A program made the position numbers and the translations under genes. Of a DNA stretch of 24,836 nucleotides, positions 3,256 through 20,985 are shown piece by piece. A model generated the notes under the pieces. That model worked only from the letters and a program-made list of their open reading frames with translations, had not been told where the DNA came from and ran no database searches. Numbering within the stretch: position 1 is the first letter of the stretch; each line of letters starts with the position of its first letter. The stretch comes from a virus, in the IMG/VR virus record IMGVR_UViG_3300045999_005206, positions 1 to 24,836 of that record. One strand, 5' to 3'.

Positions 3256-3763
3256 ACTATTTGACATACAAAATGGGAAAGTTATCCCAACAGAACATTG
3301 TTACACAATAGATTTCTTGAAGGTAATCATGGATGAATACCCAGATACCTACCTGAATGTGTACCAATATCTTTACTATATGACATGCCCAAACCCAGAT
3401 CTTAACCCATTCTTCAATCTTCCGGAACATGAAAAGGAAGATATCATAGTAGAAGAGATTAAGATGCAGGAATCACCGGAAGATCCTATGATCTTGAAGG
3501 CTTTGGCCATGTGTTCTAAACTATATGAAACCCCTACTACCAGAGCATATAAAGGTATTAAGGCTATGCTTGACAGATTAGCTCGGTACATGGAGACAAC
3601 ATCCATTGAGCATGGTAGAGATGGTAACATTAACTCATTAGTGAATGCTGCTGCTAAGTTTGAGCAAATCAGACAATCTTACAAAGGAGCATTCAATGAC
3701 ATGAAACAAGAGCAAGAGAGTGTTGTCCGTGGTGGACAAGGTTTAGCATATGATCAGTTATGA
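3245..3763 (+). CDS. Helical protein of unknown function near the packaging genes
   Basis: This is a 172-residue, mostly helical protein. Residues 20-50 (DFLKVIMDEYPDTYLNVYQY) and 70-110 are hydrophobic and acidic helices. Residues 105-160 are polar helices (KGIKAMLDRLARYME, NSLVNAAAKFEQIRQSYKGA), ending with a flexible Gly/Gln tail. The fold type and position, three genes upstream of the large terminase, make a small-terminase or other packaging adaptor role conceivable, but I see no helix-turn-helix that would support it. It overlaps its neighbours by 11 and 4 bases. The repeated polar helices could form an oligomer. Confidence 0.7.
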   Translation: MLIRLFDIQNGKVIPTEHCYTIDFLKVIMDEYPDTYLNVYQYLYYMTCPNPDLNPFFNLPEHEKEDIIVEEIKMQESPEDPMILKALAMCSKLYETPTTRAYKGIKAMLDRLARYMETTSIEHGRDGNINSLVNAAAKFEQIRQSYKGAFNDMKQEQESVVRGGQGLAYDQL

Positions 3764-4392
3764 GTCAGTTGAATGCAAACATACCATACACAGAGTGCAT
3801 TATCAGAAAAGAATGGATAGGCATGGAAGACACTCCTGGTTTTATATTTGGGGTTAAGTCTTTAATCAACCATCCCTTATTGTTTCACTTTCAGACAAAC
3901 TTTGGTGCTGTAGTTTGGAACCTTCCTATATCAGCATTCTATCATAAAGAGGGTTATGATGTTTTATCAACTGATGAGCAGAAAAGACTATCTCTATTAG
4001 AGAGTTGGGACTGTCAATCCTCAGCTATATGTGTTTTATCATTTCATTTCTTACAACACAAGAGGGTAGATGTATTCTGCCGTGATGGGCAATGGAGATC
4101 TGGGATATATCTGTTCACAATAGATGACTACCCTACAGATCCCAACACTGTGAATACAGGATATTCTGCAGATATGGATTCAAAGTGTTTTCATTTCATT
4201 GCATTAGATGATGGTAACTTCTGTGTTCAGCCTAACAACTTAATCAGATGGCATAACCCTGACTTTATCAAACCTTATGATAAAGAGAATCCACCAAAGT
4301 TTAAAATAAAAGCAGATAGATTGTCAAGTGAGGATATTGACATGACATATGCTAAGAGTCCTTATTATATTTACAGAGCAGAAAACTTATAA
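3760..4392 (+). CDS. Conserved-looking phage protein of unknown function
   Basis: This 210-residue protein reads as a mixed alpha/beta globular protein with many aromatic residues. Notable stretches are ECIIRKEWIGMED (about 12-24), FGAVVWNLPISAFYH, and a C-terminal half with SKCFHFIALDDGNFCVQPNN (about 144-163) followed by RWHNPDF. No known catalytic motif, signal peptide or membrane helix is seen. It is linked by an ATGA overlap to the gene before and a TAATG overlap to the gene after. I do not recognise a named family, though similar proteins seem to occur beside terminase genes in large Bacteroidota phages. Confidence 0.7.
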   Translation: MSQLNANIPYTECIIRKEWIGMEDTPGFIFGVKSLINHPLLFHFQTNFGAVVWNLPISAFYHKEGYDVLSTDEQKRLSLLESWDCQSSAICVLSFHFLQHKRVDVFCRDGQWRSGIYLFTIDDYPTDPNTVNTGYSADMDSKCFHFIALDDGNFCVQPNNLIRWHNPDFIKPYDKENPPKFKIKADRLSSEDIDMTYAKSPYYIYRAENL

Positions 4393-4634: not shown

Positions 4635-4906
4635 CAACACAAACAGTAGTTCCCGTAGGGAAGAAAGTATTGATCAAGCAAAAAGAAGCTGAGATGTATT
4701 ACCCAGGCACCAACATTATGATACCTGAAACAGCTAGAAAGAAAGAATGTAAAGGTACAGTTGTAGGTGTAGGTGGTGAAGTAACTGAAATTAGTGTAGA
4801 TGATTACATCATGTATGCTGATTATGCTGTACCAACATCATTAATTCACAACGGTGAAGAGCATCTTCTTATTAATGCTGGAGATGTTTTTGTGATCTTT
4901 AGGTAA
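4631..4906 (+). CDS. GroES-like 10-kDa co-chaperonin
   Basis: At 91 residues it has the usual GroES length. The order of elements matches the family: an N-terminal strand KKVLIKQKEAE (about 11-21), a mobile-loop region GTNIMIPETARKK (26-38) holding the GroEL-contacting hydrophobics IMI, KGTVVGVGG (about 41-49), a VDDYIMYADYA strand pair, and a C-terminal HLLINAGDVFVIF. Such proteins cap the GroEL ring; phages such as T4 (gp31) use them to fold their capsid protein with host GroEL. Its place directly before TerL, portal and capsid genes suits a role in folding large virion proteins. No GroEL homologue is seen in the window. It joins its neighbours by 4- and 1-base overlaps. Confidence 0.88.
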   Translation: MTTQTVVPVGKKVLIKQKEAEMYYPGTNIMIPETARKKECKGTVVGVGGEVTEISVDDYIMYADYAVPTSLIHNGEEHLLINAGDVFVIFR

Positions 4907-7095
4907 TGTACATAGAGGTACCTACATATGACAATGGCACCTGGGGTGTAACATCTTTTGATACAAGGAAGGACTTTTCTGACTTTGTACTGGGAATTTT
5001 TAAAGTTCCTGGAGAATACAAGTTCAATGAAACAGCTTTGCTTTTCAATGAAGAAGCCAGAAACTTTACAAACAATGGATTCTATTGTAGTAAGCCATTT
5101 AGATCAAAAGATTACATAGACTACTGGGATGATCAGAAGAACAAGTGTAGAACTGGTGTTATCTATAAAGATAAAGGTAATGCCTGGTACCTAACTAGAG
5201 ACTATTACATGTGGCTAAACTTTCTCCCCATCTTTGATAAAGAGGAGAAGAAGTATGGCTTTGCTAAGGTCCGGGATGCACAGTATCACATGGCCCTTTA
5301 TGAGTTGCTTGCTGAACTAAACTACAAACACTCTGCTATTCTAAAGAAACGTCAGATAGCAAGTTCTTACTTTCACATGGGTAAGATCATAAACCAATAC
5401 TGGTTTGAAGAGGGTTCTATATGTAAGGTAGGTGCAAGTCTTAAAGACTACATAAATGACAAGGGTTCATGGAAGTTCTTGGATGAATACAAGAGTTTCT
5501 TAAATGAACATACTGCCTGGTATAGACCATCAAACCCTGAAAAGGTTCTGCTATGGGAACAGAAGATTGAGGTAAGAACATCCGGAAACAGAAAGACAAG
5601 TAAAGGTCTACACTCTAAGATACAAGGAGCATCATTTGAAAAGAGTCCAACAACCGGTGTAGGTGGTCCATGTACCTACTTCTTTCATGAAGAAGCTGGT
5701 ATTGCACCTAAGATGACTGAGACTTATGAGTACTTACGTCCTGCCATGTCATCAGGTATGATGACCACTGGTATGTTTATAGCTGCTGGATCTGTGGGTG
5801 ACCTTGAACAATGTGAACCATTAAAGGATATGGTGCTTAATCCAACAGCAAATGACATATATGCTGTTGAGACAAACCTAATTGATGCTGATGGTACCAT
5901 TGGCTTGGCCGGATTGTTTATCCCGGAGCAATGGTCAATGCCACCATTCATTGATGACTATGGTAATTCACTTATAGAAGAAGCATTAGAAGCAATAACT
6001 GCAGAGAGACAGGTGTGGAAGGAAGAACTAAGTCCGGAGCAATACCAGCTGAGAATTTCTCAGAAACCAACCAACATTCAAGAGGCATTTGCTTATAGGA
6101 AAGCATCAATCTTTCCTCAAGGACTTATTTCAAGACAGCTCAAAAGGATAGAAGAGAAAGAATATTCTTATGAGCACATTGAACTCACCAGAATAAATGG
6201 AGAGATAGTACCATCAAGAACCAACAAACTACCTATCTCTTCATTTCCCATTGACAAGAAGATGACTGATAAGTCTGGTTGTCTAGTGGTTTGGGAAAGA
6301 CCTGTGAAAGATCCAGGTTTTGGAATGTATTATGCATCCATTGACCCAGTTGGTGAGGGCAAGACTACCACATCTGACTCTTTATGTAGTATATTTGTCT
6401 ATAAGAACCCTGTTGAGATAAGAAGAGAGACAATAAATGGTCTTGAAACATTTATTGAGACAGACAAGATTGTGGCAGCATGGTGTGGCCGGTATGATGA
6501 CATCAATGAAACCCATGATTTGCTCTCTATGATAATAGAATGGTACAATGCCTGGACTATTGTGGAAAACAACGTGTCACTGTTTATACAGTACATGATA
6601 TCCAAGAGGAATCAGAAGTATTTGGTACCAAAAACCCAGATATTATTCCTAAAAGACTTAGGTTCTAATACTAATGTCTATCAGGAATATGGCTGGAAAA
6701 ACACAGGTACATTATTCAAGACACATCTTATATCATATGCTATTGAGTTTCTAAAAGAAAAGATAGATGAGGAGACAGATGAGAATGGAGATACTGTTAG
6801 ATACACTAATGGTGTAGAAAGAATCCCTGATCAGATGCTTCTTAAAGAGATGTTGGCTTATTATCCTGGGTTAAACGTGGATAGATTGGTGGCATTCTCT
6901 GCTCTTATAGCATTTGCTAAAGTGCAGCAGGCAAACCGTGGATATTTGAAAAGAACTGAGTCTAATCCAAATAAATCCTTGGATAAATCAGAAAATTTAT
7001 ATAAATTTAAGTATTCCCCCTTTAAAAATTTGGAGAGGGGTGGAAGAAGTATGACTAACAAAGTAAAGAGATCTGGCTTTAAAAATTTTAAATAA
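4906..7095 (+). CDS. terL: Terminase large subunit (ATPase and nuclease)
   Basis: This 729-residue protein drives DNA into the prohead and cuts the concatemer. The N-terminal ATPase region shows a degenerate Walker A, LKKRQIASSYF at 146-156, a Walker B-like CTYFFHEEAG at 256-265 (the usual Asp is His261, with Glu262-Glu263 following), and a coupling motif AAGSVGD near 292-300. The C-terminal RNase H-like nuclease is seen from three acidic sites: YYASIDP with D480, TIVENN with E554, and NVDRLVAF with D659. The last roughly 45 residues are a basic tail. It begins one base inside the stop of the GroES-like gene, and the portal gene starts two bases after it. It could be a headful or site-specific enzyme; the sequence does not say which. 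Confidence 0.9.
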   Translation: MYIEVPTYDNGTWGVTSFDTRKDFSDFVLGIFKVPGEYKFNETALLFNEEARNFTNNGFYCSKPFRSKDYIDYWDDQKNKCRTGVIYKDKGNAWYLTRDYYMWLNFLPIFDKEEKKYGFAKVRDAQYHMALYELLAELNYKHSAILKKRQIASSYFHMGKIINQYWFEEGSICKVGASLKDYINDKGSWKFLDEYKSFLNEHTAWYRPSNPEKVLLWEQKIEVRTSGNRKTSKGLHSKIQGASFEKSPTTGVGGPCTYFFHEEAGIAPKMTETYEYLRPAMSSGMMTTGMFIAAGSVGDLEQCEPLKDMVLNPTANDIYAVETNLIDADGTIGLAGLFIPEQWSMPPFIDDYGNSLIEEALEAITAERQVWKEELSPEQYQLRISQKPTNIQEAFAYRKASIFPQGLISRQLKRIEEKEYSYEHIELTRINGEIVPSRTNKLPISSFPIDKKMTDKSGCLVVWERPVKDPGFGMYYASIDPVGEGKTTTSDSLCSIFVYKNPVEIRRETINGLETFIETDKIVAAWCGRYDDINETHDLLSMIIEWYNAWTIVENNVSLFIQYMISKRNQKYLVPKTQILFLKDLGSNTNVYQEYGWKNTGTLFKTHLISYAIEFLKEKIDEETDENGDTVRYTNGVERIPDQMLLKEMLAYYPGLNVDRLVAFSALIAFAKVQQANRGYLKRTESNPNKSLDKSENLYKFKYSPFKNLERGGRSMTNKVKRSGFKNFK

Positions 7096-7097
7096 AC

Positions 7098-9857
7098 ATG
7101 CAAGTATATAACGCAATGCAACTAAAGGCTGGTGCTAAGGCACAGAGCGGATATCCAACAACCGCTAGTCTTACACAGCCTGTACAGTTCCTTCCTGCAA
7201 AAGAAAAAAATGATGACTGGGCAGCATGGAACCTGGACTGGCTTGAGTTGCAAGGAATGTACTTCTTAAGGAAGAATGCACGTAAGCTTTTGAAAAACTA
7301 TAAGCTTGCAAAAGGTATTATTGATAAAACAGACTACATCATTGAAGAAGACAATGAATATAAGGATCTAGTTGATGTACTTACAAGAGAAGATAACTCT
7401 GCTCTTGAACTTAAGTTCTATCCTATTATTCCTAATGTAGTCAATGTGCTTTGTGGTGAGTTCTCAAAGAGATTCAATAAAGTTCAGTTTAGAGCCGTTG
7501 ATGATCTCTCATATAATGAGATGTTAGAGCAGAAAAGAATGCAAGTGGAGGAAAACCTGCTTGCTGATGCTGAACAGAAACTCATTCAGAGAATGATTGA
7601 GATGGGTGCTGATCCAACTAGTCCTGAAGTACAACAACAACTGGCTCCGGAAAATCTTAAGTCTCTTCCTGAGATTGAAGACTTCTTTAGAAAAGACTAT
7701 AGATCTTTGGTAGAAGAATGGGCTACACATGTTTACAATGTGGATGAGGAAAGATTCAAGATGCAGGAACTTGAAGAAAGAGGATTCCGTGACATGCTTA
7801 TTACTGACCGTGAGTTCTGGCATTTTAGAATGTTGGAAGATGATTATGAAGTAGAGCTTTGGAATCCTGTTCTTACATTCTATCAGAAATCTCCTGATGC
7901 AAGATACATATCTGAGTCTAACTATGCCGGCAAGATTGATTTGCTTACTGTAGCTGATGTAATAGACAAGTATGGTTATCTTATGAGTAGAGAACAGCTT
8001 GAGTCTTTACAGAATATCTATCCTGCTAAATCAGCCATCTATCAGGTGTCTGGTTATCAGAATGATGGTACCTACTATGATCCAAGCAGATCTCATGAGT
8101 GGAATACTAGTATGCCCGGCTTAGCCTATAGGCAGTTTGTAAGTCATTGGGATACTGCACCTGAGTTTGGTGGTGATGTTGTAACATCTATTCTTGACCA
8201 AGGTGAAGATCTTCAGACCTGGCAACAAGGTTCACTTATGCGTATTACCACAGTTTATTGGAAGACACAGCGTAAGGTGGGCCATCTTATAAGAATCAAA
8301 GAAGATGGAGAGATTATTCAGGAGATTGTTGATGAAACATACAAGATCACTGAAAAGCCTTTGTATGATACCTCTGTATTTAAGAATAAGAATAAAGAGA
8401 ATCTTATTCAAGGTGAGCATATTGACTGGATCTGGATTAATGAGGTATGGGGTGGTGTAAAGATTGGACCAAACTTGCCTGCATTTTGGAGATCCAACAT
8501 GTCAGATAACATTAATCCTATATACCTAGGTATCAATAGGAGCAAGCCTGGCCGGGTTCCATTCCAATTCAAAGGTGATAAAAGTTTGTATGGATGCAAA
8601 CTTCCAATTGAAGGTCGGGTATTCTCAGATAGAAACACTAGATCTACTTCACTGGTAGATCTTATGAAAGCATATCAGGTTGGATATAATATGGTAAACA
8701 ACCAGATTGCTGATATCCTTATAGATGAATTGGGTACTGTAATTGTGTTTGATCAGAATGCTCTTCCAAGACATTCAATGGGTGAAGACTGGGGTAAAGC
8801 AAACTATGCTAAAGCATATGTTGCTATGAAAGACTTCCAGATGCTTCCTTTGGATACATCTATCACAAATACAGAGAATGCTACAAACTTCCAGCATTAT
8901 CAGACTCTTAACCTGGAGCAAACAAACAGATTAATGACTAGGATTCAGCTTGCCAATTATTTTAAAGGACAAGCATTTGAAGCTATTGGTGTGAATCCTC
9001 AGAGACTTGGTGCTCCTATTGCACAACAAACAGCCACCGGTGTAACTCAAGCTCTAAACCAATCTTATGCTCAAACTGAGATTTACTTTACTCAACACTC
9101 AGATCAACTGATGCCAAGAGTTCATCAGATGAGAACAGATTTGGCTCAGTTCTATTATAGTAATAAACCAAGTCTGAGACTTAGTTATATTACCACTGAA
9201 GCAGAGAAAGTAAACTTTGTACTTAATGGTACTGACCTTTTGCTTAGAGACTTTAATGTGTTTGCTACTACTAAGACCAACCATAAGGCTATTCTTGATC
9301 AGCTTAAACAGCTTGCTATGACTAATAACACTAGTGGTGCTTCAATCTTTGATCTTGGTAACATCATTAAAGCTGAATCTATTGCTGAAGTTACTCATAT
9401 CCTGAAAGGTGCTGAAGATAAACAGAACATGATGAGAGAGCAAGAGATGGCTCAACAGCAGCAAATGCAGCAAGAAGCTCTGGCAGCAAAAGCTGAAGAA
9501 CAGAGAATGAAACTTGAGTTTGAAGCATCTGAGAATGATAAAGACCGTCAGGTTAATCTGAACATTGCTGAGATAAGAGCAGCTGGTTATGGTGCCACAG
9601 TAGATATTAACCAAAACCAGATAAGTGATTATCAGGATGCCATGAAGCAAATGAGAGAAGATGCCCGGTATAGAGAGGATATCAACTTTAAGAAAGAGCA
9701 GGCTGCTGTAAAGAACTCAATGTCTAAGAGTAAACTGGATATTGATAGAGAAAGGCTTGCTACAGAGAGAGACGTAGCTAACAAACAACTTGAAATTGCC
9801 CGTGTAAATAAGAATAAGTATGATGTGAAAGGTGGTAAAGAGAAGCCAAAAGAGTAA
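7098..9857 (+). CDS. Portal protein with a long C-terminal coiled-coil tail
   Basis: At 919 residues this is a large portal. Support comes from its place between TerL and the scaffold and capsid genes, and from portal-like text. That includes an N-terminal helical region (NARKLLKNYKLAKGIID), DYIIEEDNEY and VNVLCGEFSKRFNKVQFRAV (about 114-133), a long central beta/alpha region, and NPQRLGAPIAQQTATGVTQA near 634-653. From about residue 770 to 919 the chain is a Gln/Glu/Lys-rich helix (MREQEMAQQQQMQQEA onward), probably a coiled coil pointing into the capsid, like a barrel or internal-protein anchor. Portals form the 12-fold DNA gate at one head vertex. Only two cysteines occur, against the Cys-rich tail genes further on. 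A promoter-like motif follows it. Confidence 0.82.
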   Translation: MQVYNAMQLKAGAKAQSGYPTTASLTQPVQFLPAKEKNDDWAAWNLDWLELQGMYFLRKNARKLLKNYKLAKGIIDKTDYIIEEDNEYKDLVDVLTREDNSALELKFYPIIPNVVNVLCGEFSKRFNKVQFRAVDDLSYNEMLEQKRMQVEENLLADAEQKLIQRMIEMGADPTSPEVQQQLAPENLKSLPEIEDFFRKDYRSLVEEWATHVYNVDEERFKMQELEERGFRDMLITDREFWHFRMLEDDYEVELWNPVLTFYQKSPDARYISESNYAGKIDLLTVADVIDKYGYLMSREQLESLQNIYPAKSAIYQVSGYQNDGTYYDPSRSHEWNTSMPGLAYRQFVSHWDTAPEFGGDVVTSILDQGEDLQTWQQGSLMRITTVYWKTQRKVGHLIRIKEDGEIIQEIVDETYKITEKPLYDTSVFKNKNKENLIQGEHIDWIWINEVWGGVKIGPNLPAFWRSNMSDNINPIYLGINRSKPGRVPFQFKGDKSLYGCKLPIEGRVFSDRNTRSTSLVDLMKAYQVGYNMVNNQIADILIDELGTVIVFDQNALPRHSMGEDWGKANYAKAYVAMKDFQMLPLDTSITNTENATNFQHYQTLNLEQTNRLMTRIQLANYFKGQAFEAIGVNPQRLGAPIAQQTATGVTQALNQSYAQTEIYFTQHSDQLMPRVHQMRTDLAQFYYSNKPSLRLSYITTEAEKVNFVLNGTDLLLRDFNVFATTKTNHKAILDQLKQLAMTNNTSGASIFDLGNIIKAESIAEVTHILKGAEDKQNMMREQEMAQQQQMQQEALAAKAEEQRMKLEFEASENDKDRQVNLNIAEIRAAGYGATVDINQNQISDYQDAMKQMREDARYREDINFKKEQAAVKNSMSKSKLDIDRERLATERDVANKQLEIARVNKNKYDVKGGKEKPKE

Positions 9858-11308: not shown

Positions 11309-12928
11309 ATGGCAACTCCAGTTTTAAACAATGGGATTTTCCTCAGAGACACTAACTACAAAGCAAGTTCTCATGTGGATTCTTATCACTTAACCCAGAT
11401 GCTTGGTTCAGCTGAACCTATGGATCTTGGTCCTGTAGACATTTGGGCTATGACTCAGAAGGTAGAAATGCCTCTGTATCAAATGGCTTCATTTGGTGGC
11501 AAGAATACCATCTTGGTTGACAATGCACGTGGTGAGTACAAGTGGCAAACCCCTATTGCTCAAGATCTGCCCTTCGTTGTGGCTGACATTGAGCCTGCAA
11601 ACACCGAAAAAGGTGTGGATGGTACTACCTTCATGATTAAGATCTCTAAAAGAGCTTTTGGTCATGGTGATATTATCACTTATGACAAGTACAATGGTCT
11701 GGAACTTTACATTACTGCTGCGGATATTATCCCTGCCGGTGATGGTTACATCTACACCGTTCAGCTTGTTAACAACAACAACTCTGCATTCCTGGATAAT
11801 GTTTACCTGACTCCTGGAACCAAGTTCTTCCGTAAAGGTTCTGCCCGTGGTGAGTATGGTGAGCGTTTCTCTGATATGGAGACTGGTTCTGGCTTCCGTG
11901 AATTCTACAACTTTGTAGGTGGTGCTGAAGCTCACGTACACTACAGCATTTCTAGCCGTGCTGATCTGATGATCAAAGGTGGTTTGAATGCTGATGGTAC
12001 TGTACCTGTTACTGAGATCTGGCGTAACTTCAACCAGGATCAATATGATCCCTCAATTTCTAACATTGAGCAGTTGGTTACCAACATGGGTAAAGCAGGT
12101 GCTAAAAAAGCATTTGACAATGGAACTCTGTCACGTACTTTCTTGACCAATTTGGAAGCTGCTCACTTGAGCAAGATTGCAAATGACATTGAAACTTACC
12201 TGATGTGGGGTAAAGGTGGTAGAATCAAACAGGATGGTCCAGATGATATTCGTCTGTCTGTAGGTTTGTGGAGCCAGCTTGACAACTCATTCAAGCGTGT
12301 TTACAACAAATCTAACTTTAGCCTTGACATGTTCAAGTCTGAACTTTACAACTTCTACCAAGGTAAGGTTGAGTTCAAAGGTCCAGATCCTCAGCGTAAA
12401 CTGATTGTTCAGACCGGTATTGGTGGTATGCAGTTGATCAACAAAGCCATTGCTAATGAAGTATATGGTACTGGTCTGGTGCAGAATGCCGTTGAACTTG
12501 GTGCTGTAACTGGTAGCGGTATGGATCTTGACTTTGGATTTGCTTACACCAGCTTCACTATTCCTTTCTTGGCAAACGTGAAGTTTGTGTTGAATCCTGC
12601 ATTTGACAACCTGCACACCAATGATATTGAAAACCCTCTGATTGATGGCCGTCCTTTGAGCTCTTACAGCTTCATCATCTTTGATGTAACTGAAGAAGGA
12701 AATGACAACATCTATCTGCTGAAATTGTCTTGGGACAATCAGCTGAAGTGGTTCTATCAGAATGGTACCATGGACTACATGGGACGTACTCAAGGCTTTG
12801 CTAGCTCCGGCCAGTTCAATGGTTACAGAGTTTACATGACTCAAACCATGCCAGCCATCTGGGTAAAAGACCCCACTAAAGTTCTGAAAATAGTTATGAG
12901 AAACCCTGTAACAGGAGGTTCATTCTAA
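11309..12928 (+). CDS. Major capsid protein
   Basis: At 539 residues, this gene follows portal and scaffold genes and is closed by a strong terminator 20 bases after its stop. The text is typical of a beta-rich HK97-fold shell protein: an N-terminal arm (MATPVLNNGIFLRDTNY), a glycine-rich central part (AFGHGDIITYDKYNG), and a long C-terminal domain ending VLKIVMRNPVTGGSF. No cysteine is present. Codon use differs from the neighbours: 13 of 18 arginine codons are CGT, against mostly AGA in the terminase and portal, and CTG is frequent, as in very highly expressed genes. It forms the icosahedral shell. The HK97 fold is inferred from position and family knowledge. The start bases ATATACTATGGCAA match those of the - strand gene at 550. 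Confidence 0.82.
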   Translation: MATPVLNNGIFLRDTNYKASSHVDSYHLTQMLGSAEPMDLGPVDIWAMTQKVEMPLYQMASFGGKNTILVDNARGEYKWQTPIAQDLPFVVADIEPANTEKGVDGTTFMIKISKRAFGHGDIITYDKYNGLELYITAADIIPAGDGYIYTVQLVNNNNSAFLDNVYLTPGTKFFRKGSARGEYGERFSDMETGSGFREFYNFVGGAEAHVHYSISSRADLMIKGGLNADGTVPVTEIWRNFNQDQYDPSISNIEQLVTNMGKAGAKKAFDNGTLSRTFLTNLEAAHLSKIANDIETYLMWGKGGRIKQDGPDDIRLSVGLWSQLDNSFKRVYNKSNFSLDMFKSELYNFYQGKVEFKGPDPQRKLIVQTGIGGMQLINKAIANEVYGTGLVQNAVELGAVTGSGMDLDFGFAYTSFTIPFLANVKFVLNPAFDNLHTNDIENPLIDGRPLSSYSFIIFDVTEEGNDNIYLLKLSWDNQLKWFYQNGTMDYMGRTQGFASSGQFNGYRVYMTQTMPAIWVKDPTKVLKIVMRNPVTGGSF

Positions 12929-13005: not shown

Positions 13006-14199
13006 ATGACAATATACGCAAAAGCCCCTTTTAAGCACGTGACTGAATTCAATAACTCAACAGTTGCTGAATTGTTTGCTACACCCGAATTTACAGCAGC
13101 AGTTAATGCAATTGCTGGTGGAGGTGGACTTGAAGGTACAAGTTATATATATGTAGCTGCAAATGGTACAGATATAGAAAATGCTGCTGAATTACAGACA
13201 GCCTATACTACTGCACAAGGAATGTCTCCTTCTGCTAGTAATTATGTTACTATTATTGCTGCTCCTGGTAATTACAATTTCCAAAGTACTCCATTTGTAA
13301 TGAACACTCAATATATTAATCTTGTATCCTTAGATGGAAATAGGAGTATTATATTTAACTCATCAGATTCAAATGGTAATCTTAATGTTACAGCTGATAA
13401 TGTTTTTGTAAAAGGAATTAATTTACAAACTAAAAGCTTTACTGTAGGCAGTTTATTAAGTAATCTTAAAGTAGAAAATTGCAAATCAGGATCTAATTCA
13501 TTTTATAGTTCTAATATTAGTTTTGTTCTGTCTGGTACATATACAAACTGTGAAGTAGGAGATGATTCATTTTACGCAAACCAAATTAGTGGAACTTATG
13601 ATGGTTGTATAACTGGAAATTATGGTTTTGTTGGTTATATAACAGGTATCTTAAAAAACTGTACTGTTCAAAGTTATTCTATTGGTTTAGGATTTTCAAA
13701 TGTTGCATCTTGTGCTGGTACATTTATTAACTGTACTGGTTTTGATTACTGTTTTAAATCTACTTGTTCTGGGCTTTTTATAGGTTGTAGAACTAATGAT
13801 TATGGCTTTGCTTGGTATGATTCCTGTACTGGTAACTTTTACAACTGCATAGGAAGAAATCAATGTTTTAGTTATGGTCCTTCTGCATATGGTGCTTTTG
13901 GTCTTTTTGTAAATTGTGTAATTAATACAGGTGGTTTTGGTCATGACTCAACAGCAAGTGGAAGTTTTGCAAATTGCATAGCAGATGCAAATGCTTTTGG
14001 TTATAAAGGTGCATGTTCAGGAAAATTTTATAATTGTATAGTTATGTCTGGTACCGGCTTTGGTACAGGTTCTGGTGGAACATTAACTGGAAAATTATAT
14101 TATTGCCGTGTAGGTTTTGATCCTTTCCGAACTGTTTCTGGTGGAGGTAAAACAAGATACTGTATTGATGGAAATGATACTGCTAACAATCAAGGATAA
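13006..14199 (+). CDS. Fibre/tailspike-type protein with a right-handed beta-helix
   Basis: This is a 397-residue protein. Residues 7-35 (APFKHVTEF ... LFATPEFTAAVNA) form an anchor module that recurs in the gene at 14552. A glycine hinge (GGGGLEG) follows. Residues about 45-150 start a pectate-lyase-like beta-helix (YIYVAANGTD, YVTIIAAPGNYNF). From about 156 to 368 there are about eleven rungs of roughly 20 residues, each with a pattern like GxFxNC then a later Phe, so Asn-Cys pairs stack in a ladder. Beta-helices of this kind make phage fibres and spikes that bind or cut surface glycans; no catalytic acid pair is evident here. It is the first gene after the capsid terminator, so a capsid-attached head fibre is as likely as a tail fibre. 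Confidence 0.72.
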   Translation: MTIYAKAPFKHVTEFNNSTVAELFATPEFTAAVNAIAGGGGLEGTSYIYVAANGTDIENAAELQTAYTTAQGMSPSASNYVTIIAAPGNYNFQSTPFVMNTQYINLVSLDGNRSIIFNSSDSNGNLNVTADNVFVKGINLQTKSFTVGSLLSNLKVENCKSGSNSFYSSNISFVLSGTYTNCEVGDDSFYANQISGTYDGCITGNYGFVGYITGILKNCTVQSYSIGLGFSNVASCAGTFINCTGFDYCFKSTCSGLFIGCRTNDYGFAWYDSCTGNFYNCIGRNQCFSYGPSAYGAFGLFVNCVINTGGFGHDSTASGSFANCIADANAFGYKGACSGKFYNCIVMSGTGFGTGSGGTLTGKLYYCRVGFDPFRTVSGGGKTRYCIDGNDTANNQG

Positions 14200-14204
14200 A
14201 TAAT

Positions 14205-14540
14205 ATGAAAAATTTACAATCTATAGAAGAAGGTAAGTGGGTAGAATTAGTTTCTATTGAACTTACTAAAGCAGAAATTGAACTTTCTAAGTCAATTGAC
14301 CAAAATGATTCAGATGCTAAAAAAGCTTTAGCTGAAAAAATTGCAACAGATGGCAAAAAGTCCATTAGTGCTACTATTTCAAGCAAAGCAAAAGCCAAAT
14401 ATAATGAACTTAAACCCACTGTAAAAGATGGTGATGTTTATGAGTTTATTTCTGCAATTTTTAGTTATGATGGAATAAGTATTACAAAAGGCATTATTGA
14501 CTGCAGAGTAAATAATGAACATGTTCAAATCCGTTTTTAA
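14205..14540 (+). CDS. Small protein of unknown function in the fibre locus
   Basis: This is a 111-residue protein beginning MKNLQSIEEGKWVELVSIEL. The first 80 residues are charged helix (LTKAEIELSKSIDQND, AKKALAEKIATDGKKS), and the end is beta-like (ISITKGIIDCRVNNEHVQIRF). It lies 5 bases after the beta-helix fibre gene and 11 before the short anchor-domain gene, so it is probably co-expressed with them. A fibre assembly chaperone is a reasonable guess from position only; no family is recognised. Confidence 0.62.
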   Translation: MKNLQSIEEGKWVELVSIELTKAEIELSKSIDQNDSDAKKALAEKIATDGKKSISATISSKAKAKYNELKPTVKDGDVYEFISAIFSYDGISITKGIIDCRVNNEHVQIRF

Positions 14541-14551
14541 TCTAAAGTAAG

Positions 14552-14809
14552 ATGACAATTTATAAAGCTCCGAAAAAAGTTAATGCTCCATTCAAGCATG
14601 TTACGGACTTTACTAACTTGACAACTGAACAATTATTTGCTACTCAAGAGTTTACAAGTGCTACAAATGCACTTGTAAGCTCTGCTGTAGCAGACAAGTT
14701 AGATAAAGATACTGGTACTACTTATAATGTGTATGCATTAAAAGCAATGACTGCAGCTGAGTATGCTTTAATTACTCCAGACCCTGATACAATTTACTTT
14801 GTAATCTAA
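14552..14809 (+). CDS. Short fibre adaptor sharing the anchor domain of the beta-helix protein
   Basis: This is an 85-residue protein. Residues 12-40 match residues 7-35 of the fibre at 13006 in 20 of 29 positions (APFKHVT, LFAT, EFT and NA shared), and both start MTIY. After a short linker the C-terminus reads ALKAMTAAEYALITPDPDTIYFVI; a PDT(L/I)YFV end like this is common in phage fibre and baseplate proteins as a small assembly module. It lies two bases before the putative receptor-binding protein. The likely role is to fix that protein to the same virion site used by the beta-helix fibre, or to act as a short alternative cap. The function is inferred. Confidence 0.68.
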   Translation: MTIYKAPKKVNAPFKHVTDFTNLTTEQLFATQEFTSATNALVSSAVADKLDKDTGTTYNVYALKAMTAAEYALITPDPDTIYFVI

Positions 14810-17161: not shown

Positions 17162-17869
17162 ATGAATAATACCACCCTTCAAATAAAACTAAAACAAAGA
17201 CTGAATAAGTTAGCTAGCAATGACTATGATAATCTAGAGTGCTGGCAGATAGTTGAAGCTTTTAACAAAGCTCAAGTTGATTGGGTGCGTAGACAGTTGC
17301 ACGGTGGGAATGTTTATAAAGAAGGTGATGAGATGTCAAAGAGAAGAATTGATGACCTTCAGATTCTTCTTGTTGAACTAAATCTCACCGGTGCACAGTT
17401 TGATGATTACTTTGAATCAGACAATTTTCCGGTTGATAACTATCTTGAGTATAAAAGAATAACAGTTCAGGCTACTACAGAATGTTGTCCTGGCCCAAGA
17501 CCAATGGTTGTTTATCTTGGTGAAGAAGCTAACAGAGATCTTTATTTAAGAGATCCTCTTAAAGATCCTAGCTTTGAATGGGGGGAAACATTCTGTACTA
17601 TGATAGGTAATAGAATAAGGATTTACAGAAAACCAGACTTTAACATTGTAAATCCTGTTTTTACCTATTATAGACAGCCGGTCAATATTCAGGTATTAGG
17701 ATGTCAGAATCCTTATACTGGTACAAACAGTACTATTGATGTTGAATGTGAATTCAAAGATGATGTAGTTGAATTGTTGTTAGATGATACTGCATCATTG
17801 ATAGCTGGTGATATTGAAAACTTTAACCAGTACACAAGAAACCAACAAGCGGCAGAAAGAAATAACTAA
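17162..17869 (+). CDS. Head-tail connector / ring (adaptor) protein candidate
   Basis: This is a 235-residue protein. The N-terminal 90 residues are helical (LKQRLNKLASNDYDNLECWQ near 8-27, FNKAQVDWVRRQLHG). The centre is beta-rich (YKRITVQATTECCPGPRPMV, then IRIYRKPDFNIVNPVFTYY). The end is helical (FKDDVVELLLDDTASLIAGD near 200-219). That pattern, helical bundle, beta domain and C-terminal helix, and the closing text resemble adaptor or ring proteins that dock under the portal in podovirus-type and crAss-like phages. Six cysteines are present. It ends in a TAATG overlap with the glycosyltransferase gene, so the two are co-translated. The identification is moderate. Confidence 0.6.
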   Translation: MNNTTLQIKLKQRLNKLASNDYDNLECWQIVEAFNKAQVDWVRRQLHGGNVYKEGDEMSKRRIDDLQILLVELNLTGAQFDDYFESDNFPVDNYLEYKRITVQATTECCPGPRPMVVYLGEEANRDLYLRDPLKDPSFEWGETFCTMIGNRIRIYRKPDFNIVNPVFTYYRQPVNIQVLGCQNPYTGTNSTIDVECEFKDDVVELLLDDTASLIAGDIENFNQYTRNQQAAERNN

Positions 17870-19242
17870 TGGATTTAGTCTATCTGTATAAAGGTGGAAG
17901 CAAAACAGAATTGTTTTTAAGTATTAAGAGTGTCTGGAACTTTCTTAAAGGTTACAGACATATTTACATTATTGGTGATTATGTTGAGTTTCCAACTGTG
18001 AAAAGTGTAATTTCACTTCAGCATGGCACCAGCAGATATAACAACTCTTATTTAAAGATGATTGATGCATGTAATCATCCTGATATCAGTGATGATTTTC
18101 TTTTAATGAATGATGATTTTATATTCTTAAAAGATGTGCATGTAAATGATATTCCTACTTATCATCTTACAGGAATTAAAGAACTAGGTAATAATCCTGC
18201 TGATACAAGACATGTATTGTTTAGGAATACTACAGAGTATCTTGAATCTCAAAACAAACCCCTTAATCATTTTGATGTTCATTTTCCCATGGTTATAAAC
18301 AAGAAGAAATTCTTGTCTATGCCATCAGATAAAGATTATGCTTATAGAAGTCTGTACGGTAATCTTTACTCTGAGAATCTTGAATATCTTGAGCATGGTG
18401 ATAATGTTTGCAGATCTTTAGATGAGTTTAATAAGAAGTTTGAAAAGTTTCCAATTATATCAACTCATAATAGTTTAATACTTGAAGGCAAGTTGAATGT
18501 AATTGGAAAACTTAAGAAACATTTTTCATCTAAGCTCTATATCTCAATGACATCAACTCCTCCAAGATTTGAGAAACTTCCAGAGGTAATTAAGATTCTT
18601 AAAGCTCAAACAGTGCCATTTGAGAAAATCTTATTGCATATTCCTAAAGAGTATAAAAGATTTCCTGGAGAATACACTTTGCCAGATAGCATTCTTAATG
18701 ATGAAAAGATTTATGTTAACTATATTGATGTTGATCTTGGTCCAATCACAAAAGTACTTCCAGTAAAAGATCTGGATTTTGTAAATGATACTGATCTTAT
18801 TTTTACTGTTGATGATGATATTGCTTATTCTCCAAATACTTTAAGAAGATTTATTTTAGAATTTCAAAGAGAAGAAAGAGAATATGCTATCACTGGCTGT
18901 GGATTAAAAATAGAAGGATTCAAAGCTAGAAGGAACAGTGAAAGAATAGTTAGTTTGTTGCAAGGATTTTCTGGTTGCTTATATAGAAAAGTACATTTTA
19001 AAAACTTTTCTGATCAATACTTAACTGCCATACTCAACAATCATGAATGTTTTGTTTCTGATGATATTGTCATTAGTGGTTGGTTAAAAGAACAAAATAT
19101 AAAAATAAAAGGACTAAACAACAGCAAAGATCTTAAACCTCTTGATTATGGTTTTAATCAAGATGCGTTACATAAAGAAAGACCGAATGGTTATGTGAGA
19201 GTCTATGTTGAAGCTATGAAACAATTAAATTTTATAATATAA
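17869..19242 (+). CDS. Two-domain glycosyltransferase (Stealth-like plus GT-A)
   Basis: This is a 457-residue protein. Residues 1-210 resemble the Stealth-type sugar-phosphotransferase/glycosyltransferase group: MDLVYLYKGG at the start (like the family's DIVYxWVDG strand), NNSYLKMIDA near 58-67, and DISDDFLLMNDDFIFLKD at 72-89, where N81-D82-D83 would hold metal and substrate. HFDVHFPMVI follows. From about 220 a second, GT-A-like domain begins (LYISMTSTPPRFEKLPEVIK) with the DxD site LIFTVDDDIAY (D315-D317) and a late SDDIVISGWL near 391-400. Each domain would transfer a sugar or sugar phosphate. It is fixed in the late operon by TAATG overlaps on both sides and has codon use like its neighbours. 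Targets may be virion proteins or host surface glycans. Confidence 0.75.
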   Translation: MDLVYLYKGGSKTELFLSIKSVWNFLKGYRHIYIIGDYVEFPTVKSVISLQHGTSRYNNSYLKMIDACNHPDISDDFLLMNDDFIFLKDVHVNDIPTYHLTGIKELGNNPADTRHVLFRNTTEYLESQNKPLNHFDVHFPMVINKKKFLSMPSDKDYAYRSLYGNLYSENLEYLEHGDNVCRSLDEFNKKFEKFPIISTHNSLILEGKLNVIGKLKKHFSSKLYISMTSTPPRFEKLPEVIKILKAQTVPFEKILLHIPKEYKRFPGEYTLPDSILNDEKIYVNYIDVDLGPITKVLPVKDLDFVNDTDLIFTVDDDIAYSPNTLRRFILEFQREEREYAITGCGLKIEGFKARRNSERIVSLLQGFSGCLYRKVHFKNFSDQYLTAILNNHECFVSDDIVISGWLKEQNIKIKGLNNSKDLKPLDYGFNQDALHKERPNGYVRVYVEAMKQLNFII

Positions 19243-19670
19243 TGGAAAGAACATTAAAATCCGGTAGTGGATCTGCCCCAAAAATTGATAAGGTAGACTC
19301 AATGACAGCTGAATGTGTAGAGGAGATCTTAAACTCTGCAGTTAGTTTTCACAAACTCCATCTTCAAGTAGAAGGTGATGGATCATTTGCAGCTCATATG
19401 GCTCTTAAAGAATTATATGAAGCAATGCCTGAACTTGGTGACACTATTGCTGAGGGTTACCAAGGTGCTTCAGAAAAACTATTGAAGTATAAACATCAGG
19501 GTCCTGTTATTCTTAAATCAGTGGATGATGCCATTGAGCATATTAGAAATATGTGTGACATGGTGAATGCACTTCAGAAGATCATGCCTTACTCAGAGAT
19601 TATTAATGCACTTGACACAGTAAAAGATGCATTGAACTCAGGTAAGTACAAATTAATTTTCTTAAAATAA
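19242..19670 (+). CDS. Dps/ferritin-like protein
   Basis: This is a 142-residue helical protein. Residues 24-45 (AECVEEILNSAVSFHKLHLQ) and 49-75 (FAAHMALKELYEAMPELGDT) look like the first two helices of Dps. Candidate ligands H40, H52, D67 and E71 are spaced 12, 15 and 4 residues apart, the same spacing as the ferroxidase residues H51, H63, D78 and E82 of E. coli Dps. The C-terminal part is shorter than in Dps (about 167 residues). The text recalls the family often annotated DUF5856 in Bacteroidota phages. A working protein could oxidise iron, protect DNA or act in the virion. It begins in a TAATG overlap with the glycosyltransferase and is followed by a promoter-like motif. Assembly into a cage is not shown. 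Confidence 0.68.
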   Translation: MERTLKSGSGSAPKIDKVDSMTAECVEEILNSAVSFHKLHLQVEGDGSFAAHMALKELYEAMPELGDTIAEGYQGASEKLLKYKHQGPVILKSVDDAIEHIRNMCDMVNALQKIMPYSEIINALDTVKDALNSGKYKLIFLK

Positions 19671-19740: not shown

Positions 19741-20985
19741 ATGGCGTATTTTAATCATGCTTTCTTCAAAAGCTTTGTTGTTGACAGTGTAGACACTGTT
19801 GGCGGCACCAAAACCAAAGATCTGGCTCCTGGTCAGCTGGCTCTTGTTAATGGATCAAACTGGACCAGTGTAAGTGTACTACCTGTACCTTCAATGGCTT
19901 ACCTGGTTCAAGGTAGCTACCACACCAAGGATAACATTGGAAACAATCCTGGCCATGGTGGTTACTCTGAGTCTGTAAAGTCAAAGGGCATCAACCCTAA
20001 GTTCATTACCCGCATTTGGGAATCTGACTGCTGCTCAGCTTCTCCTGCAACTGTGTGTATTGAAGTTGGACCTACCTGTGCTCCTTGCGGTTCTAACCTT
20101 TTTCTCCGTCTGGATGTTAAAGGTTCTCCTGCTCTGCGTTTCTTGAACCACAATGCTTATGCAATTGGTGATAGCTCGGGAAGTGCTGCACTTGGTGATG
20201 TACCTGGTCTTTGCTGTGTAGAAGGTCAAACCTATCTTGACCCTGCAGTTGCTTTGGCTAAAGCTGCTGACATGCTGTTGCAAGATCCTATCATTGCTCC
20301 TTTTGTAAAAGAAAAGACCGGTGGTGGAATCACTGTACAGTATGGTGTTCTGGCTCCTACAACTTACACCATTGATCAGATTCTGGATGGAACCTATACT
20401 CCTTCTACTGATCCTGTTGGTGATGAAGTAAGTGCAGAAGTTTGCTTTGAAGGTGCTTATGTTGACACCAAATTTGGTAACTGCTCATTTGACACCCGTG
20501 ACTTCTATGAAAAAGAGCCTGTTCAACTGATTGGTTCTGTTCTGAATGAAACTGGTGATCCTTGTAATGATTGCGGTGTTGTAACTACCACTCCTGGTAC
20601 TATGCAGCAGACTTCAGGTGAAACAGTATTGAGAGAGATCCTGTTGACCGAAGCTTACATGCAGTCTCCTTACAACCAAGGTAACCCTGATTCTGCCCGT
20701 ATCCGTGAGATTGAAGGATCCAATGATATCCTGAATGCAGTTGACCGTAATGCTCTGTACAAAGGTTACTATGTACAGCACAGCATTCCCCGTCTGAACA
20801 ATCCTACCGGTGTATTTGACAATGATCAGTATGTTTACCAGATCTTCGTTAAGTGTAGTGATTTGGCAACTCAGGCTCAGGTTGAAACTTTGTTGACTGA
20901 ATTGGCAAGTGCTGCTGAACTGTCTGGTAATCCTATTACCATTGAGAACAGCATTGATGCTTGTCCTAGTGGTTACTACTACTAA
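19741..20985 (+). CDS. Abundant cysteine-rich structural protein, probably major tail protein
   Basis: This 414-residue protein is flanked by a promoter-like motif and a terminator, with nearly all arginine codons CGT/CGC and frequent CTG, as in the major capsid gene. It is therefore probably made in large amounts. The N-terminus reads as a virion protein (MAYFNHAFFKSFVVDS, then LAPGQLALVNGSNW). Thirteen cysteines occur, several in pairs: SDCCSASPATVC and TCAPCG near 98-118, GLCC near 158, DPCNDCG near 272. The C-terminal third is helical and ends SIDACPSGYYY. The cysteines could bind metal or form disulfides. A tail tube or sheath is the likeliest role; a second major head protein is also possible. 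Confidence 0.68.
   Translation: MAYFNHAFFKSFVVDSVDTVGGTKTKDLAPGQLALVNGSNWTSVSVLPVPSMAYLVQGSYHTKDNIGNNPGHGGYSESVKSKGINPKFITRIWESDCCSASPATVCIEVGPTCAPCGSNLFLRLDVKGSPALRFLNHNAYAIGDSSGSAALGDVPGLCCVEGQTYLDPAVALAKAADMLLQDPIIAPFVKEKTGGGITVQYGVLAPTTYTIDQILDGTYTPSTDPVGDEVSAEVCFEGAYVDTKFGNCSFDTRDFYEKEPVQLIGSVLNETGDPCNDCGVVTTTPGTMQQTSGETVLREILLTEAYMQSPYNQGNPDSARIREIEGSNDILNAVDRNALYKGYYVQHSIPRLNNPTGVFDNDQYVYQIFVKCSDLATQAQVETLLTELASAAELSGNPITIENSIDACPSGYYY

Follow-up and report, generated by a model that had tools for sequence, protein, structure and literature searches.

A Stealth-like domain fused to a KfiA-like glycosyltransferase domain in an accessory gene of a crAss-like phage

Enzymes of the Stealth family, such as GNPTAB and CpsY of M. 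tuberculosis, are sugar-1-phosphate transferases that take their sugar from UDP-sugar donors. The CR1 motif of these proteins reads IDVVYTF or something similar, and mutation of either N322 or D324 of CpsY lowers its activity 200- to 500-fold (PMC10668966). Single polypeptides that combine a glycosyltransferase with a sugar- or polyol-phosphate transferase are known in the form of the capsule polymerases CslB, Cps1B and Cps12B (PMC5974469), and in mycobacteriophages there are glycosyltransferases (Che8 gp110 and Corndog gp38) that glycosylate capsid and tail-tube proteins (PMC12363180).

The open reading frame considered here, which starts with ATG and lies in a 24.8-kb virus record, a genome fragment (called the window in what follows, meaning the whole stretch analysed), bears some likeness to each of these. 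Its N domain has the GT-A fold in common with GNPTAB and CpsY, but is fused to a glycosyltransferase domain and scores below the Pfam gathering cut-off. Like CslB, Cps1B and Cps12B the ORF joins a GT-A domain to a predicted phosphotransferase, although the phosphotransferase of the CslB type is TagF-like (GT-B-type) whereas the N domain is Stealth-like; its likeness to Che8 gp110 and Corndog gp38 lies in the virion-decorating role proposed below. The relevant features are these:

17162..17869, + strand: gene for a connector/ring-type head protein of 235 aa, upstream flank of the slot (phrog_29507, virion structural protein, E=4.8e-6)
17867..17871, + strand: TAATG, overlap of the connector stop with the start of the fused gene (an 8-nt spacer instead in L001)
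17869..19242, + strand: fused two-domain sugar-transferase ORF, 457 aa (full-length homologue at L001:8001-9380; dN/dS 0.11)
17869..18516, + strand: N domain, residues 1-216, predicted Stealth-like sugar-1-phosphate transferase domain (profile, Foldseek, AF2)
18088..18120, + strand: SDDFLLMNDDF, residues 74-84 (the counterparts of N81 and D83 in the alignment are N322 and D324 of CpsY, which contact the sugar and Mg2+)
18280..18282, + strand: H138, aligned with the HxP motif of GNPTAB (invariant in 44 homologues)
18346..18348, + strand: R160, candidate counterpart of CpsY R419 by position (invariant in 44 homologues)
18520..19239, + strand: C domain, residues 218-457, predicted GT-A domain like KfiA and the GlcNAc-transferase of heparosan synthase (profile, Foldseek, AF2)
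18808..18828, + strand: VDDDIAY, metal-binding motif, residues 314-320 (D315-D317 and Y320 invariant in 40 homologues)
19060..19065, + strand: D398-D399, a further acidic pair conserved in the C domain (nearly invariant in 40 homologues)
19240..19244, + strand: TAATG, overlap of the stop of the fused gene with the DUF5856 start (retained in L001)
19242..19670, + strand: DUF5856/Dps-like gene, the slot's second accessory gene (PF19174 E=4.7e-14; phrog_858 E=8.7e-20)
19741..20985, + strand: gene for a conserved 414-aa protein, downstream flank of the slot (conserved in relatives)

That the ORF is not a chance one follows from its homologue in L001 (IMG/VR contig 3300049846_000430), which occupies the same location and is 74-75% identical across 457/457 residues, together with the low dN/dS between the two; taken by halves this ratio is 0.11 (N) and 0.10 (C), implying that both domains are kept up by purifying selection. 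The gene has a GC content of 0.30, against 0.35-0.44 in the neighbouring conserved genes. Its own sequence matches Pfam only under the gathering cut-offs (Stealth_CR2 and Glycos_transf_2, each with E=0.006), and NCBIfam gave no match to the 457-aa protein. A likeness of the whole protein to RSV F was rejected, as phmmer against the PDB gave spurious matches alone, and so was an origin in a defence system, for which PADLOC gave no match. Family profiles together with AlphaFold2 models, built for the N and C domains separately, make both predicted domain assignments firm, and these domain-wise searches and models place a GT-A fold in each half, the initial annotation having proposed two different glycosyltransferase domains.

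For the N domain, a profile of 44 homologues compared with the PDB matched GNPTAB (7s6n, E=5.6e-12), Drosophila GNPT (1e-8) and CpsY (8j2n, E=4.6e-7), and all its matches at E<=0.001 were to Stealth proteins. The model (pLDDT 92.4) likewise has CpsY and GNPTAB as its top Foldseek matches. Stealth_CR2 is matched by 44/44 of the homologues at E<=0.01 (best 6.9e-11), the window's own domain reaching 17.2 bits against a gathering cut-off of 39.4. The Stealth features occur in succession: a CR1-like DLVY (within MDLVYLY, D2 and Y5 being invariant), CR2 with NDD and the HxP of CR3. After the last comes an Arg, R160, at the place expected for the essential CR3 Arg of CpsY (R419), of which it is a candidate counterpart; N81, D82, D83, H138 and R160 are each invariant in 44/44. 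At about 216 residues, however, the domain differs from Stealth proteins in having neither the long spacers nor the CLND of CR4; the tetrapeptide CLND/CIND was not found in the protein's sequence, which has ISTHN at the corresponding place, and Stealth_CR4 is matched by 1/44 of the relatives. CpsY E305, a GlcNAc contact in CR2, is aligned with M64, implying that the sugar or the way it is bound differs. The window's copy also carries substitutions (R20K, P39V and K180V) at three sites that are near-invariant in its family. Overall, sequence and model point to a Stealth-like domain, for which transfer of a sugar-1-phosphate would be expected. The initial annotation, which had read SDDFLLMNDDF as Stealth-type, is supported on this point; its description of two different fused glycosyltransferase domains holds as regards there being two GT-A families, but the first, given its Stealth-like character, is probably no glycosyltransferase in the strict sense.

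In the case of the C domain, a profile of 40 sequences matched the GlcNAc-transferase domain of the heparosan synthase PmHS2 of Pasteurella (8viw, E=7e-13) and KfiA of E. coli K5 (5z8b, E=1.4e-11), and the same two proteins were the top Foldseek matches of the model (pLDDT 87.5). Shared with these are the fold, a TxxPxR start, the DDD motif and, further along, motifs that are Gly-rich or acidic (E from 1e-11 to 7e-13; Foldseek 1e-10), whereas identity is only about 20% and the partner domain is Stealth-like rather than a GlcA-transferase; the likeness is one of sequence and fold, and is not evidence of heparosan. The GT-A DxD site that had been proposed at VDDDIAY is present, and the acidic residues, whose loss in relatives would have told against the assignments, are retained in both domains (the N81-D83 region and D315-D317). 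Bacterial relatives of the C domain sit in polysaccharide (EPS/O-antigen) gene clusters, and in 5/80 bacterial C-type loci a Stealth-like gene lies within about 4 kb of the C-type gene, directly after it in L219. Among viral fold matches giant-virus glycosyltransferases were best, with one Gordonia phage glycosyltransferase also listed. A tblastn search of named phages with the C domain gave no match, and when a two-sequence C alignment was used as the scan query the contig of L001 was the sole match.

The N domain belongs to phrog_7999 (E=2e-16), a family without an assigned function, and two overlapping scans of IMG/VR gave at least 544 and at least 493 confirmed loci with relatives of it (the confirming E-values being relative to the candidates). 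Proteins of this family are about 200-310 aa long and stand alone in all other loci examined; among 80 that were measured the range was 202-311 aa, and all were stand-alone bar that of L001. Genes occurring near the stand-alone phage members include glycosyltransferases, pyruvyl transferases, FkbM methyltransferases and sugar epimerases, and also DNA methylases, ParB-like genes, portals and head proteins. In Streptomyces phage TurkishDelight a relative (gp22), two genes after a glycosyltransferase, is bordered by the annotated major tail protein and the head-to-tail adaptor; by inspection, the gene is upstream of a sheath-like gene in L004 and flanked by portal-like and head-like genes in L320/L325, while in Cece and BrutonGaster the stand-alone relatives are outside the structural operons. 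Stand-alone Stealth-like genes recur in head/tail operons of unrelated phages (L004:7857-8744, L171:5992-6702, L320:1986-2633). In another unrelated phage a ferritin/Dps-like gene (L090:2697-3143, phrog_3636) is found near a stand-alone Stealth-like gene at 4001; phrog_3636 is matched as well, though less strongly, by the DUF5856 gene of the window. A literature search found no paper on Stealth_CR2 in phages.

Both domains occur in one ORF only in the window and L001, among the 173 N-type and 112 C-type ORFs of the loci fetched (counts that include some genes fetched twice), and in 395 bacterial genomes of the phylum of L181 nothing matched across both halves. L320/L325 had seemed candidates on the strength of a tblastn match spanning residues 1-255, but their genes stand alone. 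Within the loci and genomes searched, the fusion brings known parts together in a domain arrangement that is new.

By its sequence the phage is crAss-like (Crassvirales-type). TerL is encoded at 4906-7095 (phrog_6681, E=5e-69), the portal at 7098-9857 (phrog_6547, E=8e-93) and the major head protein (MCP) at 11309-12928 (phrog_11589, E=6e-31); tblastn matches of the last include the MCPs of cr130_1, phi17:2 and phi14:2, among named phages, Leptolyngbya phage Lbo-JY46 has the nearest MCP, 27% identical, with crAss-like cr130_1 and the Cellulophaga phages coming after it. A relative of this MCP is encoded by 600 or more stretches of IMG/VR, and among the 80 best identity is mostly 86-93%; the group, an abundant crAss-like one, may lack a sequenced isolate. 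Just upstream of the packaging genes is an auxiliary metabolic gene (3760-4392) that matches phrog_3704, ‘ferredoxin’ (E=3e-39). The ORFs at 13006-14199 and 14552-14809 have a common N-terminal motif of the kind MTIY...KxxxAPFKHVTxF, found likewise at L001:4079 and 4610, and the 397-aa product of the former has repeated, beta-helix-like ‘FxNC’ units and evolves fast (dN/dS 0.43 against L001). Both are probably head-fibre or decoration proteins and as such candidate acceptors.

The fused gene does lie among late structural genes, and TAATG overlaps with both the connector and the Dps-like gene are present in the window, as had been reported; what was drawn from them, namely that the gene is an old member of the operon and not a late insertion, fails for this group of phages. 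The slot between the connector gene (which has a homologue in Lbo-JY46 and is conserved among relatives) and the 414-aa protein gene was surveyed in 80 IMG/VR loci, the best among at least 600 that encode this MCP, plus the window and L001, and both flanking genes were resolved in 63 loci. Within this sample from the best 80 of at least 600, the fused gene and DUF5856 are both present in 2/63 (the window and L001), DUF5856 is present without the fused gene in 20/63, the slot is empty with the flanking genes less than 200 bp apart in 38/63, and other content is found in 3/63, including L068. Synteny thus extends to L001, which has the gene at the same place, but not to the other 61/63; in Lbo-JY46, too, both the fused gene and DUF5856 are absent between homologous neighbours. 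A tree built from both flanking head genes makes the window and L001 sisters (support 1.0), nested among DUF5856-only phages (support of the next nodes 0.67, 0.79 and 0.56), and the simplest reading is a single gain of the gene into a slot that already held DUF5856. Its dS between the window and L001 (1.6) is like that of the connector gene (1.4), so the gene was present before these two separated. As to the overlaps, 8 nt separate the connector stop from the ATG in L001, meaning that the upstream one is not fixed, and overlapping pairs are common in the window (2219/3025, 3245/3760, 3760/4392, 4392/4631, 4631/4906), making an overlap uninformative on the age of a gene. That the gene has long belonged to the late operon and evolved together with virion assembly would fit the TAATG at both ends and the shared position in L001, but with the gene missing from nearly all resolved loci and the upstream overlap missing from L001 it is scarcely credible, and for this clade it is refuted unless many independent losses are assumed.

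As side observations on the slot, that of L068 holds a 54-aa hydrophobic, holin-like ORF (14284-14448), implying that differing cargo is accepted; and in a distant relative (L085:13379-15208) small Lys/Gly-rich ORFs in a row, some with an LPKKQxGG start, are inserted between the homologue of the 338-aa gene and the connector gene.

There are, then, two distinct GT-A domains with conserved active-site motifs, each under purifying selection, in a gene inserted at this site; from here we infer that the enzyme is active, which donors it uses, in what order it works, what it acts on and how the phage profits. The explanation that seems likely is that the product is a bifunctional glycan-modifying enzyme, carried as late-expressed accessory cargo, that modifies a virion protein or a surface glycan. 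The gene would have entered the connector/DUF5856 slot in the common ancestor of the window phage and L001. Working like a Stealth enzyme, the N domain would take a sugar-1-phosphate from a UDP-sugar and transfer it; working like KfiA, the C domain would attach another sugar, probably from UDP-GlcNAc or a similar UDP-sugar. Between them they would furnish one acceptor with a short sugar unit that is joined through phosphate or contains it. Because the gene lies in the late operon, a virion protein (e.g. the fibre-like product of 13006-14199) is the first candidate acceptor and a host surface glycan the second, and decoration of a virion protein may account for about half of the probability of this explanation; it must be remembered, though, that the position may simply mark where cargo is tolerated. 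A more far-reaching version, in which a minimal enzyme resembling the capsule polymerases, with a Stealth module in place of their TagF-like one, puts phosphodiester-linked sugars on the phage's own particle, so that one cargo gene provides a sugar-phosphate coat, is rather improbable.

It is possible, if distinctly less probable than the explanation just given, that the virion is untouched and that a host capsule or O-antigen is altered during infection, leading to superinfection exclusion or aiding release. Capsules are built by Stealth enzymes and KfiA, the relatives of the C domain are found within EPS/O-antigen loci, and stand-alone relatives of the N domain occur near pyruvyl transferases and epimerases; against this, a late structural operon leaves little time to profit from a surface change, no sugar-pathway partner gene was recognised adjoining the fused gene, and Glycos_transf_2 is absent from eight related large contigs (in nine related contigs no such gene was found beyond the fused one of L001). 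That both domains might be ordinary glycosyltransferases making a disaccharide, the Stealth-like one having lost phosphotransfer, is suggested by Foldseek, in which GT6 galactosyltransferases also resemble the GT-A fold of the N domain, and by the changes at E305 and CLND; but as Stealth proteins supply the sole significant PDB sequence matches and the best fold matches, and as N81, D83, H138 and R160 are retained, this is unlikely. Some phages glycosylate DNA bases, and some stand-alone relatives of the N domain adjoin DNA methylases or ParB-like genes, so that action on DNA or nucleotides (e.g. base hypermodification by sugar-phosphate transfer) might be considered; given that the structurally known relatives of both domains act on glycans, and given the late structural position, it is very improbable.

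What these results provide is a documented Stealth-like/KfiA-like fusion, in two phages only among the loci and genomes searched, and an identity for the unannotated phage family phrog_7999, whose proteins are small and Stealth-like and which several hundred loci match in each IMG/VR scan. They also correct an inference, in that a stop/start overlap is no proof of old operon membership. If active, the product would be a compact enzyme for making phosphate-linked glycans, and would let virion decoration be tested in crAss-like phages.
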